DNA of 34,105 nt. Source: a virus. Location of the stretch: IMG/VR virus record IMGVR_UViG_3300046680_000318, positions 1-34,105 of that record, one strand, 5' to 3'. The notes beneath the pieces were generated by a model, which was given only the letters and a program-made list of their open reading frames with translations, ran no database searches and was not told the DNA's origin. Position numbers and translations under genes: made by a program. Shown piece by piece: positions 14,003 to 29,764 of this stretch (positions within the stretch are counted from its first letter, which is position 1; every line of letters begins with the position of its first letter).

Positions 14003-14004
14003 TC

Positions 14005-15077: not shown

Positions 15078-15079
15078 CC

Positions 15080-15610: not shown

Positions 15611-16036
15611 ATGCCACTGGCCATCCTGAAGCCCGACCCGCCATCGCGCGTGCTGCGGGCGCGGCAAGCGCCCCGTCCGCGTCCCCAGGTGGCGCTACGC
15701 GTCGCAGCGCCGCGACTGCGGCTCGTTGCCCCGCCTGCCGTCGCAGCCCCGCCACGCCCCGCCAGGGCGCGCCCTGCGGCCTTGGCCTTGCCGAAGCTGC
15801 AACCGGTGCTGCGGCTGGTGCTGCCGACGCCACCCCGGCCGGTGCGCCTCGTGCTGCGCGCACCAGCGCCGCCAGCGCCTGTGCCAACGCCGCTGGCCGA
15901 GGTGACGGGGGCGGTCGCGGTGGGTGTGCTGGGCACGGGCGGCACCCGGGTGATCATGGTGCCCGCTGACCTGACCCAGACCGGGCTGGTCAACATCACG
16001 CAATTCCGGATTTCGCTGGCAGCGGGAGTTTGGTGA
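15611..16036 (+). CDS. Pro/Ala/Arg-rich protein sharing the wedge protein's C-terminal module
   Basis: A 141-residue protein that starts on the base after the wedge stop and ends on the base before the gpJ-like start. Residues 1-95 are low-complexity and basic, rich in Pro, Ala, Arg and Leu (e.g. RQAPRPRPQVALRVAAPRLR). The last ~32 residues (GGTRVIMVPADLTQ to LAAGVW) align with the end of the upstream gp25-like protein, including MVPADLTQ and the terminal AG-x-W. It seems to be a partial duplication joined to a disordered linker. I do not recognise a function. The gap-free placement and shared module support it as a real gene. Confidence 0.6.
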   Translation: MPLAILKPDPPSRVLRARQAPRPRPQVALRVAAPRLRLVAPPAVAAPPRPARARPAALALPKLQPVLRLVLPTPPRPVRLVLRAPAPPAPVPTPLAEVTGAVAVGVLGTGGTRVIMVPADLTQTGLVNITQFRISLAAGVW

Positions 16037-17269
16037 ATGTCGGGAACCGTTGCGCCAGTCTCACCCACCGCAGCCTACGTCGATCGCACCGGCATCCACG
16101 CTCCCGACTACGCCGCCGTGCTGGCGTTCCTGAAAGGCCAGTTGCAGGCGATCTACGGCAGCGACACCGTGATCGACAACGACAGCCAGGACGGCCAACT
16201 GATCGGGATTTTTGCGCTGGCGCTCAGTGACACCAATGCCGCCTGTGTCGCGGTTTACAATTCGTTCAGCCCGTCCACCGCGCAGGGGGTGGGCTTGTCC
16301 AGCATGGTCAAGATCAACGGCATGGCGCGCCACGTGCCGAGCAATTCAACCGCGCCGATGACCATTATCGGCGTGGCCGGGACCGTGATCACCAACGGCA
16401 TCGTGCAGGACACTCCCGGCAACAACTGGGCACTGCCTGCCAGCGTGACGATACCACCCAATGGCGACATCATCGTGACCGCGACCTGTCAGACACCGGG
16501 CGCGGTGACGGCGCCCGACGGGGACATCAGCCGCATCTACACCGTGACGCTGGGCTGGCAGTCCGCGACCAACGGCCCGGTGACGGTGGGCGCGCCGGTT
16601 GAAAGCGACGCTTTGCTGCGCATCCGCCAGAGCGTCTCCACGGCGCTCCCCGCCTTGTCGGTGCTGTCAGGCATCATCGGCGCGGTGGCCGCGCTGCCCG
16701 GGGTGATCGCCACCAAAGGCTACGAAAACGACACCAACGTCGACTACACGACGGCGGTGCCGCCGCTGGGCGAGGGGCCGCTGCCACCGCACAGCATCAG
16801 CCTCGTGGTGCAGGGCGGTGACGCGATTCAAATCTGCCAGACCATCCTGCTGAAGAAAACGCCCGGCGCCTACACCTACGGCAGCACGCGTGAACTGGTA
16901 GACGACGTCTATGGCCTGCCGCACGATATCGGGTTCTTTATTCCGACGGCGGTGGCGATCGGGGTGCATATCACACTGACCGCGAAGGCGGGCTATTCCA
17001 CCATCATCGCCCAGGCGATCCGCGACACCGTGGCGGCCTACATCAACGGGCTGGGGTCGGGCGTCTCGGTGATCTATTCCAAGCTGTGGCTACCCGCCAA
17101 TCTGGACGGTGCTACCGACGTGCCAGAGAATGCCACCGCAACCTATGACATCACCGCGATGACGATGGCCAGCCCGGTCACCGGCACCTATGGCACCGCC
17201 AACATCACGCTGAACATTTTCCAGATGGCCGTCTGCGATCCGACCGACGTGATCATCACGGTCAGCTAA
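16037..17269 (+). CDS. Baseplate J-like wedge protein
   Basis: A 410-residue protein. It contains GIHAPDYAAVLAFLKGQLQA, then DNDSQDGQLIGIFALALSDT, AACVAVYNSFSPSTAQGVGL and LPASVTIPPNGDI. This is the standard N-terminal signature of baseplate J family proteins (dtG..a.....a......A....dpds..G.l....A...). The middle has ESDALLRIRQSVS and a long region with GYENDTN and PPHSISLVVQGG; the end is beta-rich. gpJ-like wedges form the outer baseplate and hold the fibres. Followed by a small opposite-strand gene and the DUF2612 wedge gene. Confidence 0.9.
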   Translation: MSGTVAPVSPTAAYVDRTGIHAPDYAAVLAFLKGQLQAIYGSDTVIDNDSQDGQLIGIFALALSDTNAACVAVYNSFSPSTAQGVGLSSMVKINGMARHVPSNSTAPMTIIGVAGTVITNGIVQDTPGNNWALPASVTIPPNGDIIVTATCQTPGAVTAPDGDISRIYTVTLGWQSATNGPVTVGAPVESDALLRIRQSVSTALPALSVLSGIIGAVAALPGVIATKGYENDTNVDYTTAVPPLGEGPLPPHSISLVVQGGDAIQICQTILLKKTPGAYTYGSTRELVDDVYGLPHDIGFFIPTAVAIGVHITLTAKAGYSTIIAQAIRDTVAAYINGLGSGVSVIYSKLWLPANLDGATDVPENATATYDITAMTMASPVTGTYGTANITLNIFQMAVCDPTDVIITVS

Positions 17270-17474
17270 GCCGCTTCTGCCAGCGCAGGAACGCCATCAG
17301 GTCCGCGTCGTCGGTGACCGGCTGGCCGTCCGCCAGCGCGTCCATGAATTGCTGGAAACTCTCGGCATCGATGATGCGCTGGCCGGTGTCCAGCACGTGG
17401 CATTTGAGGTCGATGCCGAACACCCGGAAGGTGCCCGACCATACTGCTGTGGGGATTTTTATATCTGAGGGCAT
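17262..17474 (-). CDS. Small antisense-oriented gene inside the baseplate operon
   Basis: A 70-residue ORF on the minus strand that fills the only sizeable gap (208 bases) in this part of the operon. It reads SGTFRVFGIDLKCHVLDTGQ, then RIIDAESFQQFMDALADG, and ends RWQKRLS. This looks like ordinary protein sequence, not a shadow, and recalls the short N-terminal strands of phage antirepressor/P63C-type proteins (F.v.g.....c.VL.dG.Ri), though this is only a resemblance. The start is ATG at 17474; the ribosome site is weak. No terminator or promoter is obvious. Confidence 0.55.
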   Translation of the reverse strand: MPSDIKIPTAVWSGTFRVFGIDLKCHVLDTGQRIIDAESFQQFMDALADGQPVTDDADLMAFLRWQKRLS

Positions 17475-17477
17475 CGC

Positions 17478-18182
17478 ATGACACTCGCTGATTACATCGG
17501 CCGGATCACCTCATGGCATAGCGACAAACCGCGTTTCGTCAACACGGTCGCCGTGCTGGTGCAGCCGCTGATCGACGCGCAGGACATGCTGGCCAAGCTG
17601 ACGGCGGATTTCGATCTGGATACCGCTGTCGGTGTGCAGCTTGATCAGGTCGGGCAATGGATCGGGCGCACCCGCTATGTGGAAACCCCGGTCGCAGGGG
17701 TGTTCTTTTCCTTCAACGACAGTTACGACGGCACACCGGGCGACAGCCCGCGCACCGGGTTCAATCAGGGCATCTGGCTCGGCCAGTATGACCCGGTTGA
17801 TCAGATCACCGCACTGGACGATGACACCTATCGGTCGGTGTTGAAATTACAGGCGATTGCCAACCAGTGGGACGGCACTGTTCCAGGCATTGCTGACGAT
17901 CTGGACCGGGTGTTTCCCGGTACTGTCATTCAGGATTTGGGCGACACGCCGCCCGGTCGTATGGCGATGGACGTGCTGATACCCGGCGTGCTGATCAACT
18001 CGCTGTTGCTCAGAGTGCTGGAACAGGACTTCCCGGTGAAGCCCAGCGGCGTGCATGTCAATTTCATCGAATCAACCGTGTCTACGGAACAGATTTTTGC
18101 ATTCAACATCGACGGCTCGCAAGGCGGACCGCTGGGCGGCTTCAATCAGGGAGCGTGGGGCGTCATCGTTCTGACGGTATAA
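17478..18182 (+). CDS. Baseplate wedge protein, DUF2612 (gpI-like)
   Basis: A 234-residue protein with GAGGG six bases before ATG. Sequence: YIGRITSWHSDKPRFVNTVA, then FDLDTAVGVQLDQVGQWIGR, FSFNDSYDGT, then FNQGIWLGQYDP and DDDTYRSVLKLQAIANQWDG. The 'G.qLD..G.wvGv.R' and 'DD..YR.lL...i..n.wdG' motifs are those of DUF2612 wedge proteins, which stand in for gpI. The C-terminus repeats FNQGAWGV. It lies between gpJ-like and fibre genes, as expected for the protein that links wedges to fibres. Confidence 0.83.
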   Translation: MTLADYIGRITSWHSDKPRFVNTVAVLVQPLIDAQDMLAKLTADFDLDTAVGVQLDQVGQWIGRTRYVETPVAGVFFSFNDSYDGTPGDSPRTGFNQGIWLGQYDPVDQITALDDDTYRSVLKLQAIANQWDGTVPGIADDLDRVFPGTVIQDLGDTPPGRMAMDVLIPGVLINSLLLRVLEQDFPVKPSGVHVNFIESTVSTEQIFAFNIDGSQGGPLGGFNQGAWGVIVLTV

Positions 18183-18201
18183 AACAAGGGGCACGCCAAC
18201 C

Positions 18202-20250
18202 ATGGCAACCAATGACTTCCTGACATTCGCGGGCGATCCGGCAGCCGACGTGTTGCCGCAGTCGCAATACATCGCGACCGGGTTTACCGCGCGCATCCTC
18301 GGATTTTCCACCGGCACCGCGCTGTCGATCCAACTGAACAAAGTCTGGCGGCAGGCATCGCTGATCAGCGCCATGATCGGTCAGTTCACCGTCGATGAAA
18401 TCAATCAGGACATGCTGGACGACGGCACGCCCGCTGGGATGACGGCATTGGAAACCCATTTCCGCGCCGCCCTTGTCCATGTCGCACAGAGTTCGATCGG
18501 CACCAACTTCCTGCCGCTCACAGGAGGCGCCCTTTCCGGCCCGCTTCAGATCAATGCCAGCACGCTCGGCATCACCGCGCCATCTGGCTCAGTAGCGATC
18601 AACCTGACACGTCAGCAAGGACAGTATGCCTTTCTTGCTGGCTACACCGGCACGTTCGCGCGCTGGCAAGTGTTTCTGCCCGACAACGCACCTGAGCAGG
18701 GCGGCAACTCGGGTTCCAATTTTGACATCAACAGTTTCAACGACCAGGGCGGCTATCTCGACACACCGCTAAGCATCAACCGTGCCACGGGCGTGGTGAA
18801 CTTCAGTCATGGCCCCACCGTCAATGGTGCGTCGCTGCCTTATGTGCGACTGGCTGGCGATGTGATGAGCGGCGCACTCGGCGTCGGCAGCACCGGGATT
18901 TCCTACAATGGTCTCGGCGGTTATTGGGCGCAGCACCATATCGCGTTCGGCTGGGACGGCAACGTCAATGTGGCGGTGGACGGCACCTTTGTCGGCCAGA
19001 TCGCCATGCAAAGCTGGGTCGGCGCCGTGGTCGGGGGTTACCTGCCACTCGGTGGCGGAAATCTTTCTGGGCAATTGAACGTATACGCGCCGCTTGAAGT
19101 GTTTGGCACTGCATTCCACCACTCCACGACGTTTTTCGGTTACACCGATTTCGCCAATTTCTGGGATGGCCGCTACCGCTACCGGCAATGGGCGGGAAGT
19201 TGGTATGACGCCTGGGACGGCCAGAGCGGGTTGCGCGCCTGGGCCGCGCCCGGCGCCTGGATCATGACGTTGGATGGCACTGGAAGTTTATATGTCCGTA
19301 ACATCCTGAGAGTTGATGGCAGTCGCATCATTTCCGCCAGTGGTCTGAGCGGTGGTGGTGTCGCACCTTCGGTGTGCTGCTACTGGACCGGCGGCGTTGC
19401 CAAGGGCATGTGGGTCGATGGCACCGGCCTGTGGCTCGGGCAAATGGATGGCAACGGCAATCCGTTGCGCGCGGACGTGGTATTCGACAACAACGGCTAT
19501 ATGACATTTTATGGCTCCGCATCAATCAACGGCAGCCTGTGGGTCGGCAACCAAGTGGCTGCGGCTGGCTCGATCGTTACCAACTATTTTAGTTGCAACG
19601 GCGCCGGTGTTTTCAATGGCCACTTTACCGTCAACAACGACGCCAACGTAGGCGGCACAATGGCCGCCACCGTGCTTTATTCTGGCAGCATCGTGCAGGC
19701 TCACACCCAAGTCTATTCCTACGACGGCGGTGGCGCTTCGCTCAATGCTGATGGCGTCATGTATAACGGCAACGGCGTGCAGATCGGTTGGCGCTGGGAC
19801 GGCAACTGGATGTGGTGCCGGATCAACGGCTGGGAAAAGGAAGTCATCGTTGGCAATAACCAGCGCGTCCGCAATCTGCAAATGTATAGCACCTCGTTGC
19901 AGTGGACCGACAGCGACAATTCGGGATGGCTGGCCAACACCTACCGGTCCGATCCTCGTTTCAAACGTAACATCCGAGAGGCGGATGATTTCGACAGCCT
20001 AAGCGCGATCTGTGCCACGCCGACGAAGTCATTTGAATGGCGCGAGGACTACCGCGCTGCGCCCGTCCCTTATGGGATGATCTCGACCGATGTTCGTATG
20101 ACATTGCCAGACGCGGTGATGGAAGCGCCGTCTGAGGGCGACGAACCACCGGTCGATCATCTCGATCCGCCCGCGCTGTTCGCGCATCTGTTCCGCGCCA
20201 TCGCGCAACTCAACCGCAAGATCGCAGCCTTGGAGGCACGTCATGTCTGA
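18202..20250 (+). CDS. Second tail fibre with tail-attachment N-terminus and S74-like C-terminal domain
   Basis: A 682-residue protein. The N-terminal ~110 residues (FLTFAGDPAADVLPQSQYIA, IQLNKVWRQASLISAMIGQF) are the usual attachment region of phage fibres. The hinge motifs FLPLTGGALSGPL, YVRLAGDVMSGAL and YLPLGGGNLSGQL separate body segments. The C-terminal region resembles an S74 chaperone: YRSDPRFKRNIRE with a candidate cleavage Ser near 583, then PYGMISTDV and a coiled tail (IAQLNRKIAALEAR). Sequence modules are shared with the fibre at the left edge. Expected role: receptor binding. Confidence 0.88.
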   Translation: MATNDFLTFAGDPAADVLPQSQYIATGFTARILGFSTGTALSIQLNKVWRQASLISAMIGQFTVDEINQDMLDDGTPAGMTALETHFRAALVHVAQSSIGTNFLPLTGGALSGPLQINASTLGITAPSGSVAINLTRQQGQYAFLAGYTGTFARWQVFLPDNAPEQGGNSGSNFDINSFNDQGGYLDTPLSINRATGVVNFSHGPTVNGASLPYVRLAGDVMSGALGVGSTGISYNGLGGYWAQHHIAFGWDGNVNVAVDGTFVGQIAMQSWVGAVVGGYLPLGGGNLSGQLNVYAPLEVFGTAFHHSTTFFGYTDFANFWDGRYRYRQWAGSWYDAWDGQSGLRAWAAPGAWIMTLDGTGSLYVRNILRVDGSRIISASGLSGGGVAPSVCCYWTGGVAKGMWVDGTGLWLGQMDGNGNPLRADVVFDNNGYMTFYGSASINGSLWVGNQVAAAGSIVTNYFSCNGAGVFNGHFTVNNDANVGGTMAATVLYSGSIVQAHTQVYSYDGGGASLNADGVMYNGNGVQIGWRWDGNWMWCRINGWEKEVIVGNNQRVRNLQMYSTSLQWTDSDNSGWLANTYRSDPRFKRNIREADDFDSLSAICATPTKSFEWREDYRAAPVPYGMISTDVRMTLPDAVMEAPSEGDEPPVDHLDPPALFAHLFRAIAQLNRKIAALEARHV

Positions 20251-20677
20251 ATCCGATCAGCCAGAGGTCGATCCCGGCACGACAATTCCGACGCCGCCCA
20301 CCCAGCCACCAGCCTCGGCGCTATATCCGCCAGCAGGCCCAATCATCGAACACCCGTGGCAACCGGCGACGGTGCTTCCGACCCCGGTAGGACCACCGCT
20401 GCCCACGGCCGCGCCTGTGGTGGTTGATACGCCGTATCTGTCGCAGTCGGGGAACCTGTTGAATTGCACGATGGGCAACTGGACCAACGAACCAAACCAC
20501 TATACCTACCAATGGCTCAGCAATGCCACTGACGTGACGATGGTTGGGCCTTTCTGTGCCGTTACAGCAACTGACGAAGGTAGCACTTTCACCTGTAGCG
20601 TGACGGCGGCTAACCTCATCGGTGCCGCCTCGGCAACGTCAAATTCCGTCGTTGCCACCTACACCCCACCAACATAG
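20243..20677 (+). CDS. Virion-associated Ig-like domain protein
   Basis: A 144-residue protein whose ATG lies inside the end of the fibre gene (8-base overlap). Residues 1-60 are Pro-rich (TTIPTPPTQPPASALYPPAG) and likely an extended linker. Residues ~65-140 form an Ig-like beta-sandwich pattern: SGNLLNCTMGNWTNEPNHYT, YQWLSNATDV, then CAVTATDEGSTFTCSVTAAN. The 'W.n.p....YqW......' and 'G.tftC.VtA.N' elements match bacterial Ig-like repeats. Such domains decorate phage heads and tails and may bind cell-surface sugars. Placement after the fibre suggests a fibre accessory. Confidence 0.7.
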   Translation: MSESDQPEVDPGTTIPTPPTQPPASALYPPAGPIIEHPWQPATVLPTPVGPPLPTAAPVVVDTPYLSQSGNLLNCTMGNWTNEPNHYTYQWLSNATDVTMVGPFCAVTATDEGSTFTCSVTAANLIGAASATSNSVVATYTPPT

Positions 20678-20686
20678 GAGACGCAT

Positions 20687-20893
20687 ATGCCTAAAGACCC
20701 GGAAATCGTTTGGACGCTGAACATGATACAGGCCAACCAGATCATGGGCACGTTGGCCAAGCAGCCGTTCGGCGAGGTCGCCGAATTGATCGCCGAATTG
20801 CAGAAGCAGGCGCAGTCGCAATTGCAGGGGCAGCAGATGCCGCCGATGCACAGCACGCCATCCAAGATGGACGGCGAGGCGCGGGTGCAATGA
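20687..20893 (+). CDS. Small phage protein, function unknown
   Basis: A 68-residue protein with a good ribosome site (AGGAG, six bases from ATG). It is helical (EIVWTLNMIQANQIMGTLAK; VAELIAELQKQAQSQLQGQ) with a Met/Pro-rich tail (MPPMHSTPSKMDG). No signal peptide or membrane helix. It is in the late operon and ends in an ATGA overlap. I do not recognise it. Confidence 0.65.
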   Translation: MPKDPEIVWTLNMIQANQIMGTLAKQPFGEVAELIAELQKQAQSQLQGQQMPPMHSTPSKMDGEARVQ

Positions 20894-21087
20894 GCCTGCA
20901 ACGCGTCACGGTGCAAGTGAGCGCGGTCAAATTCGGCGACGTGTGGCTGGGATCGTCCGTCACCGGCATCGCCAATTCATGGCGGCCGGGGAACATGGAC
21001 ATCACGCTCTATGATCCCGCCACGCAGGCCAGCCGCACCGTGACCATCAACCGCAATCAATGGTTCGCGGTGGATCGCGACGTGTGA
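20890..21087 (+). CDS. Small phage protein at the end of the late operon
   Basis: A 65-residue protein; the start at 20890 is set by the ATGA overlap. It is beta-rich (LQRVTVQVSAVKFGDVWLGS; NMDITLYDPATQASRTVTIN; QWFAVDRDV). It is the last gene before the intrinsic terminator at 21121. Not recognised. Confidence 0.65.
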   Translation: MSLQRVTVQVSAVKFGDVWLGSSVTGIANSWRPGNMDITLYDPATQASRTVTINRNQWFAVDRDV

Positions 21088-21120
21088 TATAGTCAGCCTA
21101 TCGAGATTGGACAGCCTTGG

Positions 21121-21147
21121 CCCCGCCAGCGATGGCGGGGCTTTTTT
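21121..21147 (+). terminator. Intrinsic terminator of the late tail operon
   Basis: Perfect 8-bp GC-rich stem (CCCCGCCA / TGGCGGGG) with a GCGA loop, followed by C and a run of six T. It lies 33 bases after the stop of the last plus-strand gene and before the convergent minus-strand genes. Confidence 0.9.
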
Positions 21148-21273
21148 CATGCCTAAATTTCCGCTGCCGTGCGGCGTGGCAGACCAGACATCGCAGCCAG
21201 GATTTGCCGGTTTGGGAATGACGCATCAACGTCGCGTTGCGGCTGTGTAGCAGATGACCGAACCGGCACTGCT

Positions 21274-21756
21274 TCATTTTTCGTCGCTCGGGCTGAACAC
21301 GACGCCCGCGTCGAGCAACATCCGCAGCAGCGCCGAGCCTTCGGCGAGCGGCAGCGTCACGTCCAGCTTGATATGGGCCTCGCCCTGGGCGGTGACCACG
21401 AATGCCAGCGCGTCCGCCCGCCTGGGGGACACCCAGGCGGCGCCCGAGGCGGTGCGGGGTGCAGACGGTGCGGGGATAGCCTTGACGCCGTCTGGCACGC
21501 GCGCACGCACCTTGGCGGCGAGGTCATCGGGCTGGCAGCCGAGCAGCTTGGCCAGCTTGACGCGGTTCTCGGGGCCGGGGCCGCCCTTGCCGTTGAGCCA
21601 ATGATAAACCGAGGTATGGCCGCGTGGCATATTGATCGCTTTGTTGAGATCACCAATGTCCTTGCCGGTGCGTTTCAGGTAATCGCGCAGCGCGATGGCG
21701 ATGTGGCCATACGCGGCGATCTGTTGCGGTGTGGCGGGGCCTGCGGCGAAGGGCAT
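21274..21756 (-). CDS. HTH transcriptional regulator (XRE-like)
   Basis: A 160-residue protein; the ATG at 21756 overlaps the stop of its upstream neighbour (TGATG). Residues ~17-80 show a cro/C1-type helix-turn-helix: IALRDYLKRTGKDIGDLNKA, then GHTSVYHWLNGKGGPGPENR and VKLAKLLGCQPDDLAAK. A Pro/Ala linker leads to a C-terminal beta-rich region (FVVTAQGEAHIKLDVTLPLA; LRMLLDAGVVF), perhaps for dimerisation. As the last gene of the minus-strand block it may control the cargo genes or the early-late switch. Which operator it binds cannot be seen. Confidence 0.75.
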   Translation of the reverse strand: MPFAAGPATPQQIAAYGHIAIALRDYLKRTGKDIGDLNKAINMPRGHTSVYHWLNGKGGPGPENRVKLAKLLGCQPDDLAAKVRARVPDGVKAIPAPSAPRTASGAAWVSPRRADALAFVVTAQGEAHIKLDVTLPLAEGSALLRMLLDAGVVFSPSDEK

Positions 21757-22040
21757 CACGCGGTCTTTCGGTTATCCACCACGCGCAGCCGGGGGCGGCT
21801 CAGCGAGGGCGTGGCGGTGCCCGCGACCAGGGCATAATAGGCGTCGCGATAGCAGGCGGTCTTGGTTTTCAGTCCAAGCTGGAATTTACCGCCATGCTTG
21901 GCCTGCCAGCACCAGCCGGTGAGCAGGCGTAGTTCGTTGGGTTTGCGGTGTTCGTTCCAAACTTTGCAATCGAGTTTGGCGACGTAGTGAATGCGCGCCA
22001 CGTTGTTGACTTCGGTGATGATTGGGTCTGGCAACCACAT
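21756..22040 (-). CDS. Small phage protein coupled to the HTH regulator
   Basis: A 94-residue protein: EVNNVARIHYVAKLDCKVWN, NELRLLTGWCWQAKHGGKFQ, then LKTKTACYRDAYYALVAG. It is rich in aromatic residues and Cys and basic overall, so nucleic-acid contact is possible. The stop overlaps the ATG of the HTH gene. Not recognised. Its ribosome site is weak and a strong hairpin (22065-22092) lies just upstream. Confidence 0.65.
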   Translation of the reverse strand: MWLPDPIITEVNNVARIHYVAKLDCKVWNEHRKPNELRLLTGWCWQAKHGGKFQLGLKTKTACYRDAYYALVAGTATPSLSRPRLRVVDNRKTA

Positions 22041-22064
22041 ACTTCAGTTTCCCATGAGATGGGC

Positions 22065-22092
22065 GCGGGCCGGGCTTGCACCCCCGGCCCGC
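22065..22092 (-). terminator. Strong hairpin after a PEP-CTERM gene, possible terminator
   Basis: A perfect 10-bp GC-rich inverted repeat (GCGGGCCGGG and its complement) with an 8-base loop, six bases beyond the stop of the 22098 gene in transcription direction. A second small hairpin (CCCAT-GAG-ATGGG, 22051-22063) follows. There is no T-run, so it may be an RNA-stabilising hairpin or a weak terminator. Confidence 0.5.
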
Positions 22093-22097
22093 TGGTA

Positions 22098-22802
22098 TCA
22101 GCGCCGCTTTCTGGCGGTCACGGCGCCGATGCCGAGGACGCCCAGGCCGAGGATGGCGATGGACGCCGGTTCGGGCACGCTGCCACCGTCAGTCGGATTG
22201 ATCACGCAATCCGGGCAGGTGGTGTTCACCGGGATATCCTGCGACACAAGGTCGTAATTGTTGGCGCTGCCGACCCAATTGATCTTGAACGCCGGGTTGG
22301 TGTAGCCCGACCAGTCACCGGTCTTCACTGTCACGCTGAAGTCAAACACCAGCGTGCCGCTCGACGCCGGGCTGCTGTTGGTGATCGCCGTGTCGTGGAA
22401 GCAGAAGAAACTCCCGCTACCATTACAATCACCGGACGGCGAGCCACTGTTCGACAGGCCGCCATCCACGAACGTATAGCCAGTAGGTGAGGATACCGAC
22501 GCGGTCGATACGTCACCCGCTGGATCACCTAAAGCGAACGACTCGACCCCGGTGCGGCCTGCATGGATGCCGCCTTTGGTGTCGCTGGCGGTGTTCTCGC
22601 CGCTGATCGTGAGCGCGAAATTAGCGGTCGGGTTGCCAGCGGTCGCAGACATTTCCAACGTGTAGGTGATGCCCTCGCAGGTGCCGGGGGAACCGCAGTT
22701 GCCTAGTGCGTTGCTCATCGACACGAGCGCAGCGTGGGCTGTGGGTGGATGAAACCAGAGTGCACCGCAGACGATGGCGGTGGTAGTCAATAGTCGTTTC
22801 AT
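22098..22802 (-). CDS. Secreted PEP-CTERM protein 1
   Basis: A 234-residue protein with an AAGGAA ribosome site. N-terminal signal peptide: MKRLL, hydrophobic core, then AHA-A near residue 24. The mature part is Ser/Thr/Gly/Asn-rich and beta-like, with Cys pairs (NCGSPGTC; CPDC). The C-terminus carries a PEP-CTERM sorting tag: VPEPAS, a hydrophobic helix (IAILGLGVLGIGAVTA), and a basic end (RKRR). In known systems exosortase cleaves at the PEP motif during export, usually linked to extracellular polysaccharide production. No exosortase is in the window, so a host enzyme would be needed. Finding it between phage genes is unusual. Confidence 0.88.
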   Translation of the reverse strand: MKRLLTTTAIVCGALWFHPPTAHAALVSMSNALGNCGSPGTCEGITYTLEMSATAGNPTANFALTISGENTASDTKGGIHAGRTGVESFALGDPAGDVSTASVSSPTGYTFVDGGLSNSGSPSGDCNGSGSFFCFHDTAITNSSPASSGTLVFDFSVTVKTGDWSGYTNPAFKINWVGSANNYDLVSQDIPVNTTCPDCVINPTDGGSVPEPASIAILGLGVLGIGAVTARKRR

Positions 22803-22824
22803 TGTGTGACGTTCCTTATGTTAG

Positions 22825-22865
22825 AAAATCCAGGGCGGCGTCCTTGCAAGGGGTCAGCGCCGCCC
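22825..22865 (-). terminator. Probable intrinsic terminator between the two PEP-CTERM genes
   Basis: On the minus strand an 8-bp stem (GGGCGGCG / CGCCGCCC, 22865-22833) with a 17-base loop is followed by TGGATTTTC. It lies 56 bases after the stop of the 22921 gene. A second tight hairpin (GCGGG-ATAA-CCCGC) lies directly at that stop codon. It suggests the two PEP-CTERM genes may be separate transcription units. Confidence 0.5.
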
Positions 22866-22920
22866 CGGTAGTTGCTGCTTTTAGCTGCGGGTTATATCCC
22901 GTAGCGGCGGGTTATCCCGC

Positions 22921-23604
22921 TTACACCCGGCGGCTCTGACGGCGAACGAAGCCGAGGCCGAGCAAGCCAAGACCAACCAGGGCAAGCGAACCCGGCTCGG
23001 GCACCGCAGCCGCGCTGGCGTTGGCGATGCCGCTAAACCCGGCAGTGAACGACTGGATGGTGTTGCCGGAAACTTCCAGGCCGCCGCCGTCAGGGCTGAC
23101 CACGCTGGCCAGTGACAGGGTGAAGCTGGACGGCGCCAACAGTTCACTGGCCGGGATCACGCTGGACGTAAGCGACAGCGTGTCGGGCGGGTTGCTGATG
23201 TTCACTGAAAGCTGCGAGCCGGTGAGCAGACCGAACGCGGCGTCCGTGAAGGTGCCGCTCAGATCGTTGACATTGCCGACGCCCGCGCAGTTCAGGGTCG
23301 AGCAGACCGAGAACGTGCCGTTGTAGTGCTGCACGACGGCATTGCCGACGCCGATGATACCGCCGGTCGAGGTCGCCGCGAGGGTGACGAAAGCGGCGAT
23401 GGCGGGCGGGGTGGTGGCGCCGAGCAACTGATCGATCAGCACCGGAGCGTTGGTGATGGAGATAGTGGTGCTGGTGCCGCCGGTCGCGGTGCCGGTGACA
23501 GTGGCGGCCAGACCGACCTGACCGAAGTCGATAATCTGGGTGGCGTTGGCCGAAGCCATCCCCAGCCCGATCATCGCGGCCGTGGCGAGTAAGATGTTAC
23601 GCAT
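22921..23604 (-). CDS. Secreted PEP-CTERM protein 2
   Basis: A 227-residue protein with a strong ribosome site (AAGGAG, six bases before ATG). Signal peptide MRNILLATAAMIGLGMASANA, with likely cleavage after ANA. The mature part is Thr/Ser/Val/Gly-rich and beta-like (VTGTATGGTSTTISI; DTLSLTSSVIP; FTLSLASVVSPDGGG), with one Cys pair (CSTLNC). It ends with VPEPGS, a hydrophobic segment (LALVGLGLLGLGFV) and RRQSRRV, a textbook PEP-CTERM tag. The architecture matches protein 1 but the mature sequences differ, so this is not a recent copy. Expected location: cell surface or extracellular matrix. Confidence 0.9.
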   Translation of the reverse strand: MRNILLATAAMIGLGMASANATQIIDFGQVGLAATVTGTATGGTSTTISITNAPVLIDQLLGATTPPAIAAFVTLAATSTGGIIGVGNAVVQHYNGTFSVCSTLNCAGVGNVNDLSGTFTDAAFGLLTGSQLSVNISNPPDTLSLTSSVIPASELLAPSSFTLSLASVVSPDGGGLEVSGNTIQSFTAGFSGIANASAAAVPEPGSLALVGLGLLGLGFVRRQSRRV

Positions 23605-23623
23605 GGAGAACTCCTTGTGTGTG

Positions 23624-23642
23624 TCCGTCTAGATCGGACGGA
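23624..23642 (-). promoter_or_regulatory. Small hairpin in the leader of PEP-CTERM gene 2
   Basis: Inverted repeat TCCGTC / GACGGA with a 7-base loop, 20 bases upstream of the ATG and just before the ribosome site on the minus strand. It may affect mRNA stability or act as a small operator. The 99-base gap up to the next gene also holds TTGTCA followed by an AT-rich stretch, so a promoter here is plausible, but no good -10 box is seen. Confidence 0.35.
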
Positions 23643-23703
23643 TGCAGTGAAACACGGGTGGAAGTCATTCCGAAAAGAAAACGCGTCTTTTGACAACAAT
23701 GGC

Positions 23704-23916
23704 TTAGTGGCCGGAAGTTGGCGTTTTTTGAAACGACTCTAAGTCTGCCGACACCGTCTCAAGCCATAACGCCAGCGCCTGGGTGATCGCTGTCGCCCGC
23801 AGATGTGCCATATTCTCCTCTGTGACGCCCCGCCCCGAGGTCAGGTATGACGCCAGCATCGGCGCATAGAGCGACGCCGCCATCAGGCTGATATGCTCGG
23901 CGAGGTCGTCGGTCAT
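23704..23916 (-). CDS. Small early-operon protein, function unknown
   Basis: A 70-residue protein, helical (DLAEHISLMAASLYAPMLAS; AHLRATAITQALALWLETVS). The ATG overlaps the stop of the coiled-coil gene upstream (ATGA). It is the last gene of a run of overlapping minus-strand genes. Not recognised; no membrane helix strong enough to call. Confidence 0.62.
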   Translation of the reverse strand: MTDDLAEHISLMAASLYAPMLASYLTSGRGVTEENMAHLRATAITQALALWLETVSADLESFQKTPTSGH

Positions 23917-24146
23917 TTGCCACGCGACGGATGCGCCATGTTCTTGGCCAGCAATTCCGAGGGCGCAGGCTGCAACAGCACGTCCACGGCCGCGCGTAGC
24001 TCGATGATCTGGCGTTGCTGGTCAGCGATACAGCGCGCCTGTTCGGCAAGCGTGCTGCGCAGATCGTCTCGCTCGGCTTCCAAATCTTGGATGCGGTATC
24101 GCAGCGCGCGCGCCAGGGTCTCGCCGGTCATAGACTCATTCTTCAT
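23913..24146 (-). CDS. Small coiled-coil protein
   Basis: A 77-residue protein (or 72 from a second Met at 24131). Residues ~10-58 form a clear heptad-like coiled coil rich in Arg, Glu, Asp, Leu and Gln (LRYRIQDLEAERDDLRSTLA; IADQQRQIIELRAAVDVLLQ). The C-terminus is short and basic. Overlaps both neighbours by ATGA. Possibly an adaptor or oligomerisation factor; function unknown. Confidence 0.62.
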   Translation of the reverse strand: MKNESMTGETLARALRYRIQDLEAERDDLRSTLAEQARCIADQQRQIIELRAAVDVLLQPAPSELLAKNMAHPSRGK

Positions 24147-24361
24147 GCGCCGGGTATCCCTTGCTCTGGTGGTTCATGCACCACGTGCCTGACCTGTCCG
24201 CTGGGCAGCGTCACCTGAAAGGGTGGCGGCCCGAGGTCAGCCAGCAACAGCGGCGTCTTGGGCAATAGATGCCACACACCGTCGTTGGTGATGTGGCCCC
24301 ACGGCTTGCCGTCGTCGTGCGCCAGTTCTTTCTCGCGCAGGGTTTTGACTTCGTCGCTCAT
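24143..24361 (-). CDS. Small phage protein, function unknown
   Basis: A 72-residue protein. The start at 24361 is chosen from the ATGA overlap with the beta-helix gene; an in-frame ATG 15 bases upstream exists. It reads SDEVKTLREKELAHDDGKPW, GHITNDGVWHLL, then FQVTLPSGQVRHVVHE. It is charged at the N-terminus and beta-like afterwards. No recognised domain. Confidence 0.62.
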   Translation of the reverse strand: MSDEVKTLREKELAHDDGKPWGHITNDGVWHLLPKTPLLLADLGPPPFQVTLPSGQVRHVVHEPPEQGIPGA

Positions 24362-25530
24362 GGATGCGGACTCCATAGATCGCCTGCTAGCGGCGTGGTC
24401 AGCACACTGGTCGAGGTCAGTTCGCTGACGATCGCGGTGAGCGCGGCCGAGTTGGTCCAGACGCTCGGATGCGTCGCCGCGTAGGTCTGGAAATCCGCCA
24501 GCGTGACGGCGTGGTATTGATCGAGCGTCAGCGCGGGAGGCGGCGGTGTCGGGGGCACAATTGGCGGTGGCGGCGGGGATGGTGGTGATGGCGGCGGTGG
24601 TGGTTCTGTTGGTGGCGGTGATCCTGCTGGTTGTGTAATGAACACCAGCGACGCGGTGTCGAGGCTAGGCCGGTTGTCCAAATGGACAGTGTCGCTGCCA
24701 AAGCTGGACGCGGGCAGGCCAAACACCTGATTCCCAGATAGTCCGAGCGGTGTTCCGTTGGGATCGAGGATGCCAGCGCCCCGCGAGTCATCGTTGACCA
24801 CGGTGTTGTTGGTGATCGCGACGTTGGTGCCAGGGTTGCTGGCGCCTTCCTCGCCATAGGCGATTATGAACGGGTTCTGGGTGTTCGGCCCTTGCTCGAT
24901 TTGATTGTCAGAGATGTTCGCATTGCCGCCGTTTGGCAGATCGATCGAATAGCTGGCACTGCCGTTGTTGTCGAAGATGCGGTCGCTGGTGATGGTGTTG
25001 GACGCGGCGCGGGATTTGATTTCGTGTCCAACGACGGCATCATGGACATAGCTGTTGGTGAGACTGAACGAGGCAATGGCGCCAATATAGATGTTATGCG
25101 TTGATCCGCTGCCGTCGCCGTTGAAGGCGAATTCCGAATGGTCGATGGCAATACTGCCGTTGCTATCGGCGGCACCGAGCAGTCCTTCTTGGTTGTTGTG
25201 GAAATAGTCGTCGGTGAGGGTGAGACTACCGCCCTCATAGCGGATCGCAGCCCCATTTCCATCCGATACAGCCACCCCGCCAATATCGAACCCGTTGATC
25301 GCCACAGTGACACCGGGTTGGCCCTCCGTAATCATCGCCTTGCCATCGGGTGGTGACTGATCCTCGGTCATCACCACTTCGCCGCCGACCGCTTGCAGTG
25401 TGACGCTCTTTTCGACCGTCAGGAACTGGTCGTTGTAGCTACCAGCGGTCACGTCGATCGTATCGCCGGGTGACGCCGCATCAATCGCAGACTGGATCGA
25501 CTGACCTTGGGATACCGTCAACGTGGCCAT
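24358..25530 (-). CDS. Right-handed beta-helix protein with Pro-rich linker
   Basis: A 390-residue protein with an AGGAG ribosome site. It begins ATLTVSQGQSIQSAIDAASP, GDTIDVTAGSYNDQF, the usual cap of pectate-lyase-like parallel beta-helices. Coils with short turns and Asn/Asp/Gly ladders follow (ITNNTVVND; ISDNQIEQG; ITSDRIFDNNGSASYSID) to about residue 290. A Pro-rich stretch (~300-335) joins a C-terminal ~55-residue helical part (LTLDQYHAVTLADFQTYAAT). There is no signal peptide. Beta-helices often bind or cleave polysaccharides, but catalytic residues cannot be assigned. It is co-directional and nearly contiguous with the recombination genes, which is unusual for a tailspike-like fold. 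Confidence 0.78.
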   Translation of the reverse strand: MATLTVSQGQSIQSAIDAASPGDTIDVTAGSYNDQFLTVEKSVTLQAVGGEVVMTEDQSPPDGKAMITEGQPGVTVAINGFDIGGVAVSDGNGAAIRYEGGSLTLTDDYFHNNQEGLLGAADSNGSIAIDHSEFAFNGDGSGSTHNIYIGAIASFSLTNSYVHDAVVGHEIKSRAASNTITSDRIFDNNGSASYSIDLPNGGNANISDNQIEQGPNTQNPFIIAYGEEGASNPGTNVAITNNTVVNDDSRGAGILDPNGTPLGLSGNQVFGLPASSFGSDTVHLDNRPSLDTASLVFITQPAGSPPPTEPPPPPSPPSPPPPPIVPPTPPPPALTLDQYHAVTLADFQTYAATHPSVWTNSAALTAIVSELTSTSVLTTPLAGDLWSPHP

Positions 25531-25539
25531 GGCACGCTC

Positions 25540-25887
25540 CTATGCAGCCGGGGGTGGCTGATTGGGCAGCGTTGCCAGATATGCGTCGAACCGTCGAGCC
25601 AGTTCCTTCAGTAGCCTTTCAACGGTTGGACCGTGTTCACCGAACGGCGCCGACACGGTGGCGATGCGAAAGGTTATTTTGTAAGCCTCTGCCGCTACGC
25701 GGTTCACTGCCGCCGCGAGGCACATCGCCTCAAACATCCGCTCGATAGCCACCGCGTGCGCCTCGGGCGTCAGGTGGCCGGGCAGGCGCAGCGGCGCGAC
25801 GTTGGACGGCGTAGGACCGCGCCCAGCGGCTCCCTGGACGCGTGTCTGACCCGGCTCAATGGCGTCGATGGGCGGACCTTCCGTCAT
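25540..25887 (-). CDS. Small phage protein, function unknown
   Basis: A 115-residue protein that overlaps its upstream neighbour by ATGA. The N-terminal ~40 residues are Pro/Gly-rich and probably disordered; the rest is helical (AHAVAIERMFEAMCLAAAVN; VERLLKELARRFDAYLATLP). Not recognised. Part of the Gp157-ERF operon. Confidence 0.65.
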   Translation of the reverse strand: MTEGPPIDAIEPGQTRVQGAAGRGPTPSNVAPLRLPGHLTPEAHAVAIERMFEAMCLAAAVNRVAAEAYKITFRIATVSAPFGEHGPTVERLLKELARRFDAYLATLPNQPPPAA

Positions 25888-26126
25888 GCCGCCCCCATCA
25901 GGTGGTCGAACGCGGCCACGGTGGTGTTGGTCTGTTTGGCTTTGGTTTCCAGTTCAATGGCGATGTCGATCAGTTCGTCCACCGAGTAGGTGCCGTGCAA
26001 CTGCACACGCCCGCCCTTCTGATAATAGAACGGCGTCACAGTTCCGATCATGTTACGAACGGCCCGCCGCTCCGTAGGGGTGAGGGCGCAGTATCTTTGG
26101 AACGCGGTCATGGCGGGATCGCTCAT
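25884..26126 (-). CDS. Small phage protein, function unknown
   Basis: An 80-residue protein coupled to the ERF gene by an ATGA overlap. It contains FQRYCALTPTERRAVRNMIG, then TPFYYQKGGRVQLHGTYSVD and LIDIAIELETKAKQT. The C-terminal helix may form a coiled coil. No domain recognised; it could be a partner of the annealing protein, by position only. Confidence 0.65.
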   Translation of the reverse strand: MSDPAMTAFQRYCALTPTERRAVRNMIGTVTPFYYQKGGRVQLHGTYSVDELIDIAIELETKAKQTNTTVAAFDHLMGAA

Positions 26127-27160
26127 GTCGCCACCCCCAGTTCAGCGGCGCGTGCCTTGATCGCGGCGTCGATGCGGTCCTGTTCGGGGAACGACAGCCC
26201 CAGCACCGCCTGATTGAACAACGGGGTGGTGAGCAGACTGTCCAGTTGCGCCTGATCGGCGCGGCTGATTTCGTTCAGCAACGCCGTCATGGCAGTCGAT
26301 TCGGGTGGCGTGGACTCTTGTGGCGCCACGCGGGCGGTGTGGGTGACGACCAGGGCGTCGATGTCGGCGCGCACGGCGGGGCTGGCACCGTCGCGCCACG
26401 CTTTGATCGCGTCGCGCCCCATCACGGCGGCAATGTCGTCCAGCACCTTGCAGCCGCCCAACAGGGTGTCCAGCCGCTTCAGCCACGCGGTGGCATCAAC
26501 GGGCTGGCCGGTGGTGGTAGGCGCTGTGGCGTGCTGTGGCGGGCGCGGCGGGGCATGTTGCGCGGGCGGGTGAGACGCGGGCTGCGACTGGCGCGGCCCG
26601 CGCGTCGGATCGCCGCCATCGTCGTCGGCGGCAATGTCGGGCATGTGCTGGATCAGGCTGAAAACCATGCCCAGCAAATACCGCGACAGGTAGGTGACCG
26701 TGCCGCCGACCGCCTGCAAAGCGTTCATCTGGGTTTTGCCACCCCGGATGCCTTCGCCCGACAGGATCGGGCCAGACAGCGCGGTGATTTCCTCGTGGTC
26801 GCCGAGCGACAGGATCAGGGTGACCGTCATCCAATCGGGGTCGGGGTGCGGTGCGGTGCCGAAGCGGAATGCCAGACCGTGGTAGGCGGTGACCGGTTTG
26901 ATCACGCCCAGCATACCGGGCAAAGTGGCGTAGCGGCTGTGCAGATAATCGTTCTTGGCGTCCTTCGGCACTAGCTGCATCTCGGTCGCGGCGCTTGTCA
27001 TCGCCTCGTTGAACGCACGGTGCGCCAGCACTTTACGTTCGGCGCTATAGGCGTCCAGCAACGCCTGAAACTTCGTGGTATCGAAATTCGGGTCGGCCGC
27101 CGCGCGCTGGATCAGCGCCAGCATGGGGTGGGTGTTGCCGGTGGGCACAACGTCATTCAT
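26123..27160 (-). CDS. erf: ERF-family single-strand annealing recombinase
   Basis: A 345-residue protein. The ATG at 27160 is preferred over a TTG 21 bases upstream because AGGAAG lies seven bases before it. Residues ~45-190 match the ERF domain: LAHRAFNEAMTSAATEMQLV, DYLHSRYATLPGMLGVIKPV, YHGLAFRFGTAPHPD, and later ALQAVGGTVTYLSRYLLGMV. A Pro/His/Gln-rich linker (~205-235) leads to a C-terminal helical domain. ERF proteins anneal complementary single strands in phage recombination and circularisation. It lies next to a Gp157-like gene, a frequent pairing. Confidence 0.88.
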   Translation of the reverse strand: MNDVVPTGNTHPMLALIQRAAADPNFDTTKFQALLDAYSAERKVLAHRAFNEAMTSAATEMQLVPKDAKNDYLHSRYATLPGMLGVIKPVTAYHGLAFRFGTAPHPDPDWMTVTLILSLGDHEEITALSGPILSGEGIRGGKTQMNALQAVGGTVTYLSRYLLGMVFSLIQHMPDIAADDDGGDPTRGPRQSQPASHPPAQHAPPRPPQHATAPTTTGQPVDATAWLKRLDTLLGGCKVLDDIAAVMGRDAIKAWRDGASPAVRADIDALVVTHTARVAPQESTPPESTAMTALLNEISRADQAQLDSLLTTPLFNQAVLGLSFPEQDRIDAAIKARAAELGVAT

Positions 27161-27181
27161 GGCAGCTTCCTCTGTGGGCAA

Positions 27182-27732
27182 TTAGAACGGCGTGATCCTC
27201 ACGACCAACCCTGGATTTGATAACTCTGCGCCGGGGATGGTTTCGTCGGGCTTCAGCGCTTTCAAATCCTTGGCCAGTGCGATCTTGTCGGGTTCTCGGG
27301 TGATGGTGGTGCGGATGTATTTTTCCGGCAGCCAGTCCACGTCGGCGATCACCTTGGGCGGCGCCTTCACCATGCTGACGCTACCCAGTTCGGACTCCGC
27401 TGCGGTGATGCTCAACACGTCAAGCAACTGCACGATGGTAGCGCGGAGGTGGTCGCTGCGCTCGGCATAACGGTTCTTGCGCGCGGTGTAGCGCTTGGCG
27501 AGGTTGGCCGCCTCGGTCTCGCGCCGCTCGCACCAGATTTCCGCGTCGATCGCCTGACGGAGCAGCACCGAAGGATGCGGCCACTTGGACTGATCCTCGG
27601 GCAGCGCTGGCAGCTTGGCCGCCAGTTCGTCGGGGTCCATCGAGGGGTCGTCGGCCAGCTTTGCCTGGATTTGCTGATACAACGATACGGATTTTTCCAG
27701 CACGTAGGCTGATGGGGGCTGTGTCATGCTCA
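27182..27732 (-). CDS. Gp157-like phage protein
   Basis: A 183-residue protein; the start at 27732 (or 27726) is chosen because the longer frame enters the divergent promoter gap and reads as non-native sequence. The pattern fits the siphovirus Gp157 family: ALEKSV-type helix (YVLEKSVSLYQQIQAKLADD), long charged helices (AANLAKRYTARKNRYAERSD), LRATIVQLLDVL, and a C-terminal MVKAPPKVIADVDWLPEKYI stretch. Members are linked with phage resistance or recombination operons, without a settled role. First gene of the minus-strand operon that includes ERF. Confidence 0.78.
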
Positions 27733-27776
27733 TGGCTCGTCTTGACATGGACGCGGGGCAAATGCAAGGTGGATAA
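27733..27776. promoter_or_regulatory. Divergent intergenic control region, Gp157 / RHH
   Basis: Only 44 bases separate the divergent Gp157-like and RHH starts. A TTGACA hexamer lies at 27741 (plus strand); no good -10 box follows at 16-18 bases. The plus gene has AAGGTGG as a ribosome site. The RHH protein could repress its own promoter here; this is inferred. Confidence 0.35.
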
Positions 27777-27974
27777 ATGCGACACAGTAAAAAACCCAAC
27801 CGAGGGCTACCGCGCTCCTCCCATGAGCGGCAGCGCGTGCAGATCACCATGACGATTGACCGCGAGGTGTTGCGGCAGATCGACGTGATTTGCGAGCGGG
27901 AGCAACGGTCGCGTTCCCAGATCATGGATTGGGCAGCGACTCAGTTTGCCGCGAAACACAACAAGGCGGCGTGA
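27777..27974 (+). CDS. Ribbon-helix-helix (CopG/Arc-like) regulator
   Basis: A 65-residue protein. A basic N-terminal arm (MRHSKKPNRGLPRSSHERQR) precedes an RHH fold at residues ~20-60: the strand RVQITMTID, helix REVLRQIDVICEREQ, then RSRSQIMDWAATQFA. Proteins of this shape are dimeric DNA-binding repressors. It diverges from the Gp157-ERF operon and overlaps the VRR-NUC gene by one base, so it may autoregulate and control early genes. Confidence 0.82.
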   Translation: MRHSKKPNRGLPRSSHERQRVQITMTIDREVLRQIDVICEREQRSRSQIMDWAATQFAAKHNKAA

Positions 27975-28399
27975 TGGCACGGATACAGCAGTTCAAGCTG
28001 ACCATACCGGAACCAAAGGAACTGGACCTGCATCGGCAGATCGCCGACTGCCTGCGACTGGAAATTGGCCTGCCGGGACGGTTGTCCAAGCAAGGCGTGA
28101 TGTGGTGGGCCTACGATATCTCAAACAGCGCGGCGATTGCGCCCGGCGCACGGACCACGCTCGGCATCATCGCGGGCATTCCCGACCTGATGTTCCTGTA
28201 TCGGGCCAAGGCGTATTTTCAGGAAATCAAACGGCCGAACGGTGTGTTGTCCGATGCGCAGGGCGCGGTGATGGCGTCCGCGCGGCTGGCCGGTGCCGAT
28301 ATCGCGGTGTGCATCGACGCCCGGTCGTGTCTGGCCAATCTCGATGTGTGGCAGGTGCCACGCACGCGTCGCACGGTGTTCCCGATGGAGGTGGTATGA
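27974..28399 (+). CDS. VRR-NUC domain nuclease
   Basis: A 141-residue protein; the start at 27974 overlaps the RHH stop (TGATG). It shows a PD-(D/E)XK core of the VRR-NUC type: GIPDLMFLYR (Asp71), FQEIKRPNG (Glu84, Lys86), followed by LSDAQ and a helix-strand end (VMASARLAGADIAVCIDA). Stand-alone VRR-NUC proteins in phages are thought to act as structure-specific nucleases, perhaps on recombination or Holliday-type intermediates, which fits the ERF gene nearby. Confidence 0.85.
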   Translation: MARIQQFKLTIPEPKELDLHRQIADCLRLEIGLPGRLSKQGVMWWAYDISNSAAIAPGARTTLGIIAGIPDLMFLYRAKAYFQEIKRPNGVLSDAQGAVMASARLAGADIAVCIDARSCLANLDVWQVPRTRRTVFPMEVV

Positions 28400-28845
28400 T
28401 GGCAGGCAGGGCACGCAGCACCGATCCAGGCACGTCGCATTCAGCGGCCGCGCACGTCAACACAGCCGATCTGGAAGCCAAGTTCATTGCCGCGCTGCGG
28501 CGCATCGGGCATCCGCTGACGACCACTGAAATCGCCGTGGTCTGTGGCTATCCGCGCGACAGCTTTTCGCCGCGTGCGATCCCGCTGTTGGAGAAGCGGC
28601 TGATCGTCAAGGCGGCCAAGCGGCTGTGCCAGAACGGCAAGGGCAATTGGCGGATGATGTTGGCCTACGGGCTGCCAGGATGGTCCAGGGAGTTATTGCT
28701 TGGCGAGGGCGACACGCGACCGAAGCCCAGCAAGCGCGCCAAGGCGAAGGCGCCGGTCGAGCCGGTGCCCGAGCCGGTGGCGGCGCCCAAGCCATCAGCG
28801 CAACGGCGTGGGTTCAATGATCCTCGGCAGGGCGCCTTGCTGTGA
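28396..28845 (+). CDS. Winged-helix-like DNA-binding protein
   Basis: A 149-residue protein with start codons at 28396 and 28399 (MM). Residues ~24-75 resemble a winged helix: EAKFIAALRRIGHPLTTTEI, AVVCGYPRDSFSPRAIPLLE, KRLIVKAAKRL. The C-terminal ~50 residues are Lys/Arg/Pro/Ala-rich, likely disordered and DNA-contacting (KPSKRAKAKAPVEPVPEPV). It overlaps the VRR-NUC stop. The specific role is unknown. Confidence 0.68.
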   Translation: MMAGRARSTDPGTSHSAAAHVNTADLEAKFIAALRRIGHPLTTTEIAVVCGYPRDSFSPRAIPLLEKRLIVKAAKRLCQNGKGNWRMMLAYGLPGWSRELLLGEGDTRPKPSKRAKAKAPVEPVPEPVAAPKPSAQRRGFNDPRQGALL

Positions 28846-28880
28846 TATGAAAGGAACCGGTGAACCAGAGTTTGCGATCT

Positions 28881-28894
28881 GCCGGTCCACCGGC
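28881..28894 (+). terminator. Small hairpin between convergent genes, possible terminator
   Basis: Palindromic stem GCCGG-TCCA-CCGGC followed by CCCGTTTG. It lies between the end of the winged-helix gene and the end of the convergent ParB-like gene. The short T-tract makes termination weak at best. Confidence 0.35.
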
Positions 28895-28911
28895 CCCGTT
28901 TGATGCGGTGG

Positions 28912-29625
28912 TCAGGCGGCCTTGCGCATGGACTTCATGACGCCCACGACGAGTTCCCCGTCGGGATACTTTTCGCCACTGATCCGCTGGCGGCCTTCGA
29001 TCGCGGTGCGGACCTTGTCGGTGTGACCCTGATCAATCGAGACGCGGACGTTGACGCTGTCGCCCGAGTTGACCAGCCACGCGACCAGCTTGCGCATGGC
29101 GGCGGTGTCGGTGCGGTCGTAGCCACAGAACTCGCCGACGCGACGGGCCAGACCGTAGACGCTGGGGCCTTGGCGGCGGGCGATGGTGAGCAGTTCATCG
29201 GGGCTGAACAACCCGGCCAGCGCCGAGATGGCGGGCGCCAGCCGCGACGGCAGATCGCCCGCAGCGCCGCCGAGGGCGTGTACTTCCAGCCACTGCTTGC
29301 CGGTAAGCTTCTTGCTGGTTTCGTTAATTTCGCGAAAGATTTTCGTGAGGTATTCCGCGCCCACTTCGATCACCAGGGCGGGGACGTGGGCGAACTCGGG
29401 GTTCTTCAGTTTCTTCAAGCTGTAGACGGCAAACCTGCGATGCCCTTCGATGATCATGTAGCGGCCGTCGTCCTTCTTGTTCACCAAGATCGGGTAATAG
29501 AGTCCGATCTCGCTGATCGACGCCAGCAAACCCTTGATGTCAGCTTCCTCGCCGCGCCCGCGCGGGTTCAGCGGGTTCTTGTCCACCAAATCGAGCGGGA
29601 TGTTGTGGACCGTGTAGTCCTTCAT
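28912..29625 (-). CDS. ParB-like nuclease domain protein
   Basis: A 237-residue protein with a strong GGGAGG ribosome site. Residues ~8-75 form a ParB N-terminal domain: IPLDLVDKNPLNPRG, DIKGLLASISEIGLYYPILV and the IIEGHRRFAV box (residues 58-67). Further helices follow (FREINETSKKLTGKQWLEVH). The typical ParB helix-turn-helix is not obvious, so this is more like a phage ParB/Srx-type regulator or nuclease than a chromosome-partition protein. It diverges from the Dam gene over a region with repeated GGACCG elements. Confidence 0.82.
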   Translation of the reverse strand: MKDYTVHNIPLDLVDKNPLNPRGRGEEADIKGLLASISEIGLYYPILVNKKDDGRYMIIEGHRRFAVYSLKKLKNPEFAHVPALVIEVGAEYLTKIFREINETSKKLTGKQWLEVHALGGAAGDLPSRLAPAISALAGLFSPDELLTIARRQGPSVYGLARRVGEFCGYDRTDTAAMRKLVAWLVNSGDSVNVRVSIDQGHTDKVRTAIEGRQRISGEKYPDGELVVGVMKSMRKAA

Positions 29626-29645
29626 GACATATCCTCCCTTTCACA

Positions 29646-29733
29646 CCGGACCGGGTCAAATCGTGCAGGACCGGGCGAATTGGACCGAATACGGAATCTT
29701 TATGCGAGTCAAGCAGCAAAATCGCCGGTCCAG
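29646..29733. repeat. GGACCG direct and inverted repeats in the ParB-Dam control region
   Basis: GGACCGGG occurs at 29648 and 29668, GGACCGA at 29682, and the inverted form CCGGTCC at 29725. Three direct copies 20 and 14 bases apart plus one inverted copy lie in a 139-base divergent intergenic region. They look like operator sites or iterons. Confidence 0.5.
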
Positions 29734-29764
29734 CGATAAAGTTGCGTTGTGGGGGATAAAAGTG

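Follow-up and report, generated by a model that had tools for sequence, protein, structure and literature searches.

What is a phage doing with two secreted proteins that carry a bacterial surface-sorting tag? PEP-CTERM proteins are numerous, and the function of most of them is undetermined. The question is raised by a virus record in IMG/VR, 34,105 bases long, which was analysed over its whole length (the window) and is probably a fragment of a larger phage genome. Two neighbouring genes on its minus strand encode such proteins: P2 (22921..23604, 227 amino acids) and, downstream of it, P1 (22098..22802, 234 amino acids).

Two tagged proteins in phage DNA

P1 begins with MKRLLTTTAIVCGALWFHPPTAHA and ends with SVPEPASIAILGLGVLGIGAVTARKRR; P2 begins with MRNILLATAAMIGLGMASANA and ends with AVPEPGSLALVGLGLLGLGFVRRQSRRV. 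The signal peptides, called by inspection and a simple script rather than by SignalP, span approximately residues 1-24 of P1 and 1-21 of P2, and both have a basic start, a hydrophobic core and a cleavage-type site (AHA/ANA). The tag starts at residue 209 of P1. The TIGR02595 profile scores P1 at 26 bits and P2 at 28.7 bits (cut-off 16), and Pfam PF07589 scores them at 27.2 and 32.1 (cut-off 20.7), which bears out the preliminary description of a signal peptide and a complete PEP-CTERM tag in both genes, with the right coordinates and strand. TIGR02595 matched nothing in 14 control genomes, and a looser filter (signal peptide plus xEP), applied to 1.6 Mb of related prophage loci of bacterial genomes, returned 7 short ORFs, none of them with a PEP motif. 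When the P1 and P2 profiles were compared with each other, only the last 30 columns, which are the tag, could be aligned; at that level of comparison the mature parts are unrelated, and the description was right that they differ.

The structure of P2 was predicted with AlphaFold2 (pLDDT 78.9), and the model shows a small beta-barrel domain and a tag helix at residues 204-226. Foldseek found nothing significant for it in the PDB or BFVD. The best VIA-align match was the cyclase PloI4, itself a small beta-barrel, with a Z of 9.2; many unrelated barrels scored just below it, and so no function was read from the fold. The P1 model was too poor to keep (pLDDT 54.9) and was discarded.

The C-terminal helix could be a mere anchor, as in a spanin-like lysis factor or a virion factor, with no exosortase involved. 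The signal peptide, beta domain and C-terminal helix superficially resemble a unimolecular spanin, and the genes are in tandem, often overlapping, with an endolysin directly upstream in one phage (L012). However, neither P1 nor P2 has a lipobox cysteine where its signal peptide is predicted to be cleaved, and 48 of 49 aligned P1 and P2 sequences keep the E-P of the motif and the basic end (42 have the full PEP), features for which a plain anchor would have no use. We consider a simple anchor very unlikely.

One lineage of P2 relatives has lost the tag (L048:10001-10570, L050:96-665 and L060:10001-10570). These proteins end in SASAVPGR and the DNA that follows is unrelated, so the tag is not always needed.

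Both flanks of the pair are phage. On the plus strand lies a contractile-tail module with neck, sheath, tape measure, baseplate and a tail fibre (18202-20250), and a terminator-like hairpin (21119..21142, plus strand) separates this tail operon from the minus-strand operon that holds P1 and P2. The last gene of the minus-strand operon encodes a putative HTH regulator (21274..21759; weak HTH_3/HTH_31 match, under the Pfam cut-offs), a relative of which adjoins P2 in another phage contig, L043. Between it and P1, on the same strand, is a small gene (21756..22040) that is kept in L043 and in the sister contig L018. Three more small minus-strand genes (23704-23916, 23913-24146 and 24143-24376; together 23704..24376) lie between P2 and a beta-helix gene, here called BH. 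A PHROG search found no match for the three, and PADLOC, run on the window, gave no defence match beyond a marginal one (E 0.015) for 23913-24146. The same-strand operon also includes an Erf-like ssDNA-annealing protein of phage recombination (26123..27181, minus strand; phrog_155 E 1.9e-26, PF04404) with Gp157/Gam-like and ParB-like genes, and a Dam methylase and a primase follow on the plus strand. Elsewhere in the window, the open reading frame at 7819-8520 (minus strand) is unlikely to be a real gene.

The preliminary description allowed that this segment might be host chromosome. That alternative fails: L018 matches both flanks at 99.5-99.9% and has, at the corresponding place, both P2 and a gene in the P1 slot. 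The GC content and codon use of P1 and P2 resemble those of the adjacent phage genes, and with phage genes on both sides the placement of the two tagged genes in phage DNA is upheld.

A cassette in many phages

Viral contigs hold 15 relatives of P1 and 44 of P2, the P1 relatives having been aligned from 11 phages. At least one gene with a signal peptide and xEP-CTERM occurs in each of 77 IMG/VR contigs, and these loci form 41 DNA clusters; a TIGR02595 match is present in 42 of 48 related phage records. The carriers are many unrelated, uncultured phages, and none of P1, P2 and BH has a match among the INPHARED phages. P2 had no match in plasmids and no relative in genome_contigs, hence no prophage with P2 there, and none of the named genomes carries it. 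In 385 Alphaproteobacteria and 349 Burkholderiales its profile found the tag region and at most a weakly matching adjoining part. Order-level searches around two alphaproteobacterial genomes, G071 and G204, covered five genomes.

The tagged genes are usually arranged with the P2 type directly 5' of the P1 type, often with a 4-base overlap. P1 here occupies the second slot (mature family 1) and P2 the first (mature family 0); the loci together contain nine mature families, of which three occupy the first slot and six the second, and one locus has the slots in reversed order. The third member, which the preliminary description lacked, is BH (24358..25530, minus strand), a predicted right-handed parallel beta-helix protein with a Pro-rich linker and no signal peptide. 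A search with BH found 58 viral loci, and those flanked by 3 kb or more in both directions, 29 in number, were counted: 26 of these, and 9 of their 12 DNA clusters, have a PEP-CTERM open reading frame within 3 kb of BH, in a sample that is not fully independent because the BH seed alignment was built from cassette members. The P2 type, the P1 type and BH are thus a conserved cassette. It had been suggested that the two tagged genes were acquired or kept separately, which is not borne out in this form, since many phages carry the P2 and P1 types in tandem along with BH.

The position and gene order of the cassette vary, and the kind of phage gene beside it varies by phage. It adjoins a terminase in L005 (directly upstream of P2), a portal in L100, a capsid gene in L019 and L024, an endolysin in L012, a tail fibre in L124 and L010, and Erf in L031. 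Relatives of the window's phage have a PEP-CTERM pair in the tail region (L013:2319-3775 and L076:7698-8812), in L013 within the tail operon with the tube gene on one side and the tail-assembly chaperone on the other; the cassette therefore seems to move between sites.

Variable position and order, and the occurrence of BH relatives in host chromosomes, might be expected of passenger genes, that is, genes of host exopolysaccharide (EPS) loci carried along by transduction and useless to the phage. Against this, pairs of like type have pairwise dN/dS values of 0.05-0.23, by which measure the P1 and P2 proteins are under purifying selection. The cassette is moreover found in many unrelated phages, and the P2 mature domain was not found in the 734 Alphaproteobacteria and Burkholderiales genomes. 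Useless passengers are highly improbable. A dN/dS value for P1 between the window and L018 was dropped because the mature parts are not homologous.

Exchange of mature domains and phage life style

The comparison of the window with L018 is the clearest view of how the tagged genes change. Identity is 99.9% over 12865-22223, 96% over 22745-25979 and 99.5% over 26119-33631; P2 is 94% and BH 100% identical as protein. Between the first two blocks, the segment that encodes the P1 mature domain (22224..22744, minus strand) has no BLASTN match to L018, with flanks 96-99.9% identical. The last 81 bases of the P1 gene are the same in both, and the two signal peptides are still recognisably alike, so that the mature domain of the window is replaced in L018 by an unrelated one. 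The L018 version is also present in L032, from another metagenome, and is therefore unlikely to be an assembly error. In a second pair of contigs, L014 and L132, two other mature domains sit between signal-peptide DNA that is 86% identical and tag DNA that is 88% identical. The mature part is exchangeable in each slot.

The tail fibre and BH are unchanged between the window and L018, so the partner that drives the P1 change is probably neither of these two phage proteins, in a comparison where L018 does not cover the tail-spike gene at 2-2911. A second, short divergent tract between the two contigs lies at 25979-26119, within a small gene (25884-26126); the DNA to either side of this tract is 96-100% identical.

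When in the phage life cycle would such proteins act? The preliminary description assumed a lysogen, in which a temperate phage changes the surface of its host. The HTH regulator adjoins P1 in the window, and two of the 51 records yielded a tyrosine integrase, both as lysogenic conversion would have it. But the integrase is absent from the 34 kb window and from 49 of the 51 records, many of them 40-84 kb long although still fragments; several phages have the cassette among their structural or lysis genes, and no prophage bearing P2 was found in genome_contigs. The scarcity of integrase argues against temperate growth, with room left for it by the fragments, and makes lysogenic conversion less likely than action in lytic growth. 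The lysogen premise is not supported, and we regard conversion as improbable.

An exopolysaccharide partner and a proposed role

BH links the cassette to exopolysaccharide. A strong BH relative was found in 19 of 289 Alphaproteobacteria, and an exosortase in 15 of those 19 as against 19 of the 270 others (Fisher P 1.3e-12, phylogeny not corrected for). In three genomes (G058, G071 and G108) the BH relative is 13-27 kb from the exosortase, near genes for PrsK, PrsT, the XrtA chain-length determinant, a PEP-CTERM outer-membrane protein or an EpsB-type glycosyltransferase. The proteins from these loci share 33-40% identity with phage BH over most of the helix; the one in G108 ends in a PEP-CTERM-like tag (not scored by Pfam), and other bacterial relatives have DUF4214 and RTX domains, some of them adjoining polysaccharide flippase genes. 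Bacterial relatives thus variously have a signal peptide, DUF4214/RTX or a PEP-CTERM-like tag, whereas the phage BHs have none of these. Because the partner gene has relatives in XrtA/PEP-CTERM EPS loci of several bacteria, the exopolysaccharide link made in the preliminary description is supported.

One use of such a partner would be to loosen host EPS in late infection and so let progeny out of the floc or biofilm, with BH acting on polysaccharide and P1 and P2 binding EPS and displacing host PEP-CTERM proteins. The BH relatives in XrtA EPS loci are consistent with this, as is the position of the cassette against late genes (endolysin in L012, terminase in L005, portal in L100), and in the bacteria tested PEP-CTERM proteins are believed to make the attachment of EPS more stable (PMC12188702). 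On the other hand, the match of BH to the PL6 alginate lyase BcAlyPL6 (7dmk) is a weak profile likeness over short stretches at the start of the helix, in the N-cap only, so that any activity is hypothetical, and EPS loosening alone does not explain a swap of P1 with identical BH and fibre. Matrix escape by itself is possible but rather unlikely.

The preliminary description also had the phage use the host's exosortase. No exosortase was found in any of the 48 related phage records, so the host's must serve, if the tags work; this much of the claim stands. A scan with the tail sheath gave relatives of at most 54% identity in many Proteobacteria, and for that reason no host was called.

With these pieces together, we propose that the cassette makes use of the host's exosortase (XrtA/PEP-CTERM) pathway to recoat the infected cell, its debris or the matrix, a reading we hold to be about evenly balanced between right and wrong. 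Sec would export P1 and P2, and their C-terminal helix would keep them in the inner membrane until the host exosortase cleaves them at the PEP motif and they move on to the cell surface or the EPS matrix. BH, whose family also occurs in such EPS loci in some bacteria, would work with them on polysaccharide, while mature domains would be swapped behind a constant signal peptide and tag. The recoating would exclude competing phages, or keep progeny from being trapped or adsorbed. This mechanism is proposed because it fits the tags, the missing phage exosortase, the partner from EPS loci and the exchangeable mature parts. Counted against it are the loss of the tag in L048, L050 and L060, the lack of a signal peptide in BH, and the lack of a sigma-54 site: none was found 5' of P1 or P2 with up to two mismatches allowed, and sigma-54-like matches elsewhere in the window are at chance level. 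Such a site is typical rather than defining, being upstream of 99 of 167 proteobacterial PEP-CTERM genes (PMC1569441).

Judging from the sequences, the cassette would display exchangeable proteins, most likely to exclude competing phages or alter EPS; phage exclusion as its purpose, which the preliminary description gave as an example, is a hypothesis. The benefit may be competitor exclusion, debris avoidance or matrix escape, and the sequence does not tell which. A more specific version, which we put forward tentatively and at a little less than even confidence, is a modular display cassette with constant ends for export and exosortase processing, whose mature domain is recombined apart from the fibre and BH to give a variable, host-made coat on a Gram-negative cell.

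The nearest known system is the PEP-CTERM/exosortase (EpsH, XrtA) sorting of Gram-negative bacteria (Haft et al. 2006, PMC1569441), which the phage genes resemble in signal peptide, PEP motif, hydrophobic helix and basic end, as well as in the link to EPS loci and the highly divergent mature parts. Unlike the bacterial genes, which mostly form single-gene operons, they come as tandem pairs accompanied by a beta-helix gene, without an exosortase, with no sigma-54 site found upstream, and with mature domains swapped between near-identical genomes. Llp of phage T5 and other superinfection-exclusion lipoproteins (PMC9586334) are likewise small exported phage proteins in the host envelope during infection. 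Llp blocks adsorption to infected cells and debris (PMC9586334), the same role as one of those proposed for P1 and P2, but it is a lipoprotein that acts on FhuA from the periplasm, whereas P1 and P2 have an exosortase tag and no lipobox. The open-access literature searched, as far as its available text goes, reports no phage-encoded PEP-CTERM protein, and the founding PEP-CTERM paper (PMC1569441) makes no mention of phage.

The tags, together with the swaps of mature domains between constant ends, suggest that a bacterial system for sorting proteins to the surface is borrowed by phages to alter the coat of the infected cell. If exclusion or EPS change is indeed what results, this would be a new phage route to reshaping biofilm and floc surfaces where EPS governs infection. 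The phage PEP-CTERM set, being selected, paired with a fixed partner gene and swapped in its mature domains, offers natural minimal substrates for probing exosortase sorting. The cassette also marks phages whose hosts should be exosortase-positive, which may aid host assignment.

Several beta-helix genes outside the cassette are worth recording. A viral contig (L140:3005-9000) has three tandem beta-helix paralogues with no PEP-CTERM neighbour. Two Alphaproteobacteria, G204 (L270, L271) and G071 (L272, L273), have four or five BH paralogues each; those scanned carry DUF4214, and one carries RTX too, with a polysaccharide flippase gene close by. In the exosortase region of G058 a ZorA-like protein, under its family cut-off, adjoins the BH gene (L280:10255-12093). 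On contig C7 of G204, which has no recognised phage genes, a bacterial BH relative lies directly 5' of a PEP-CTERM protein (L278:1276-2982), a pairing also seen in the phages.
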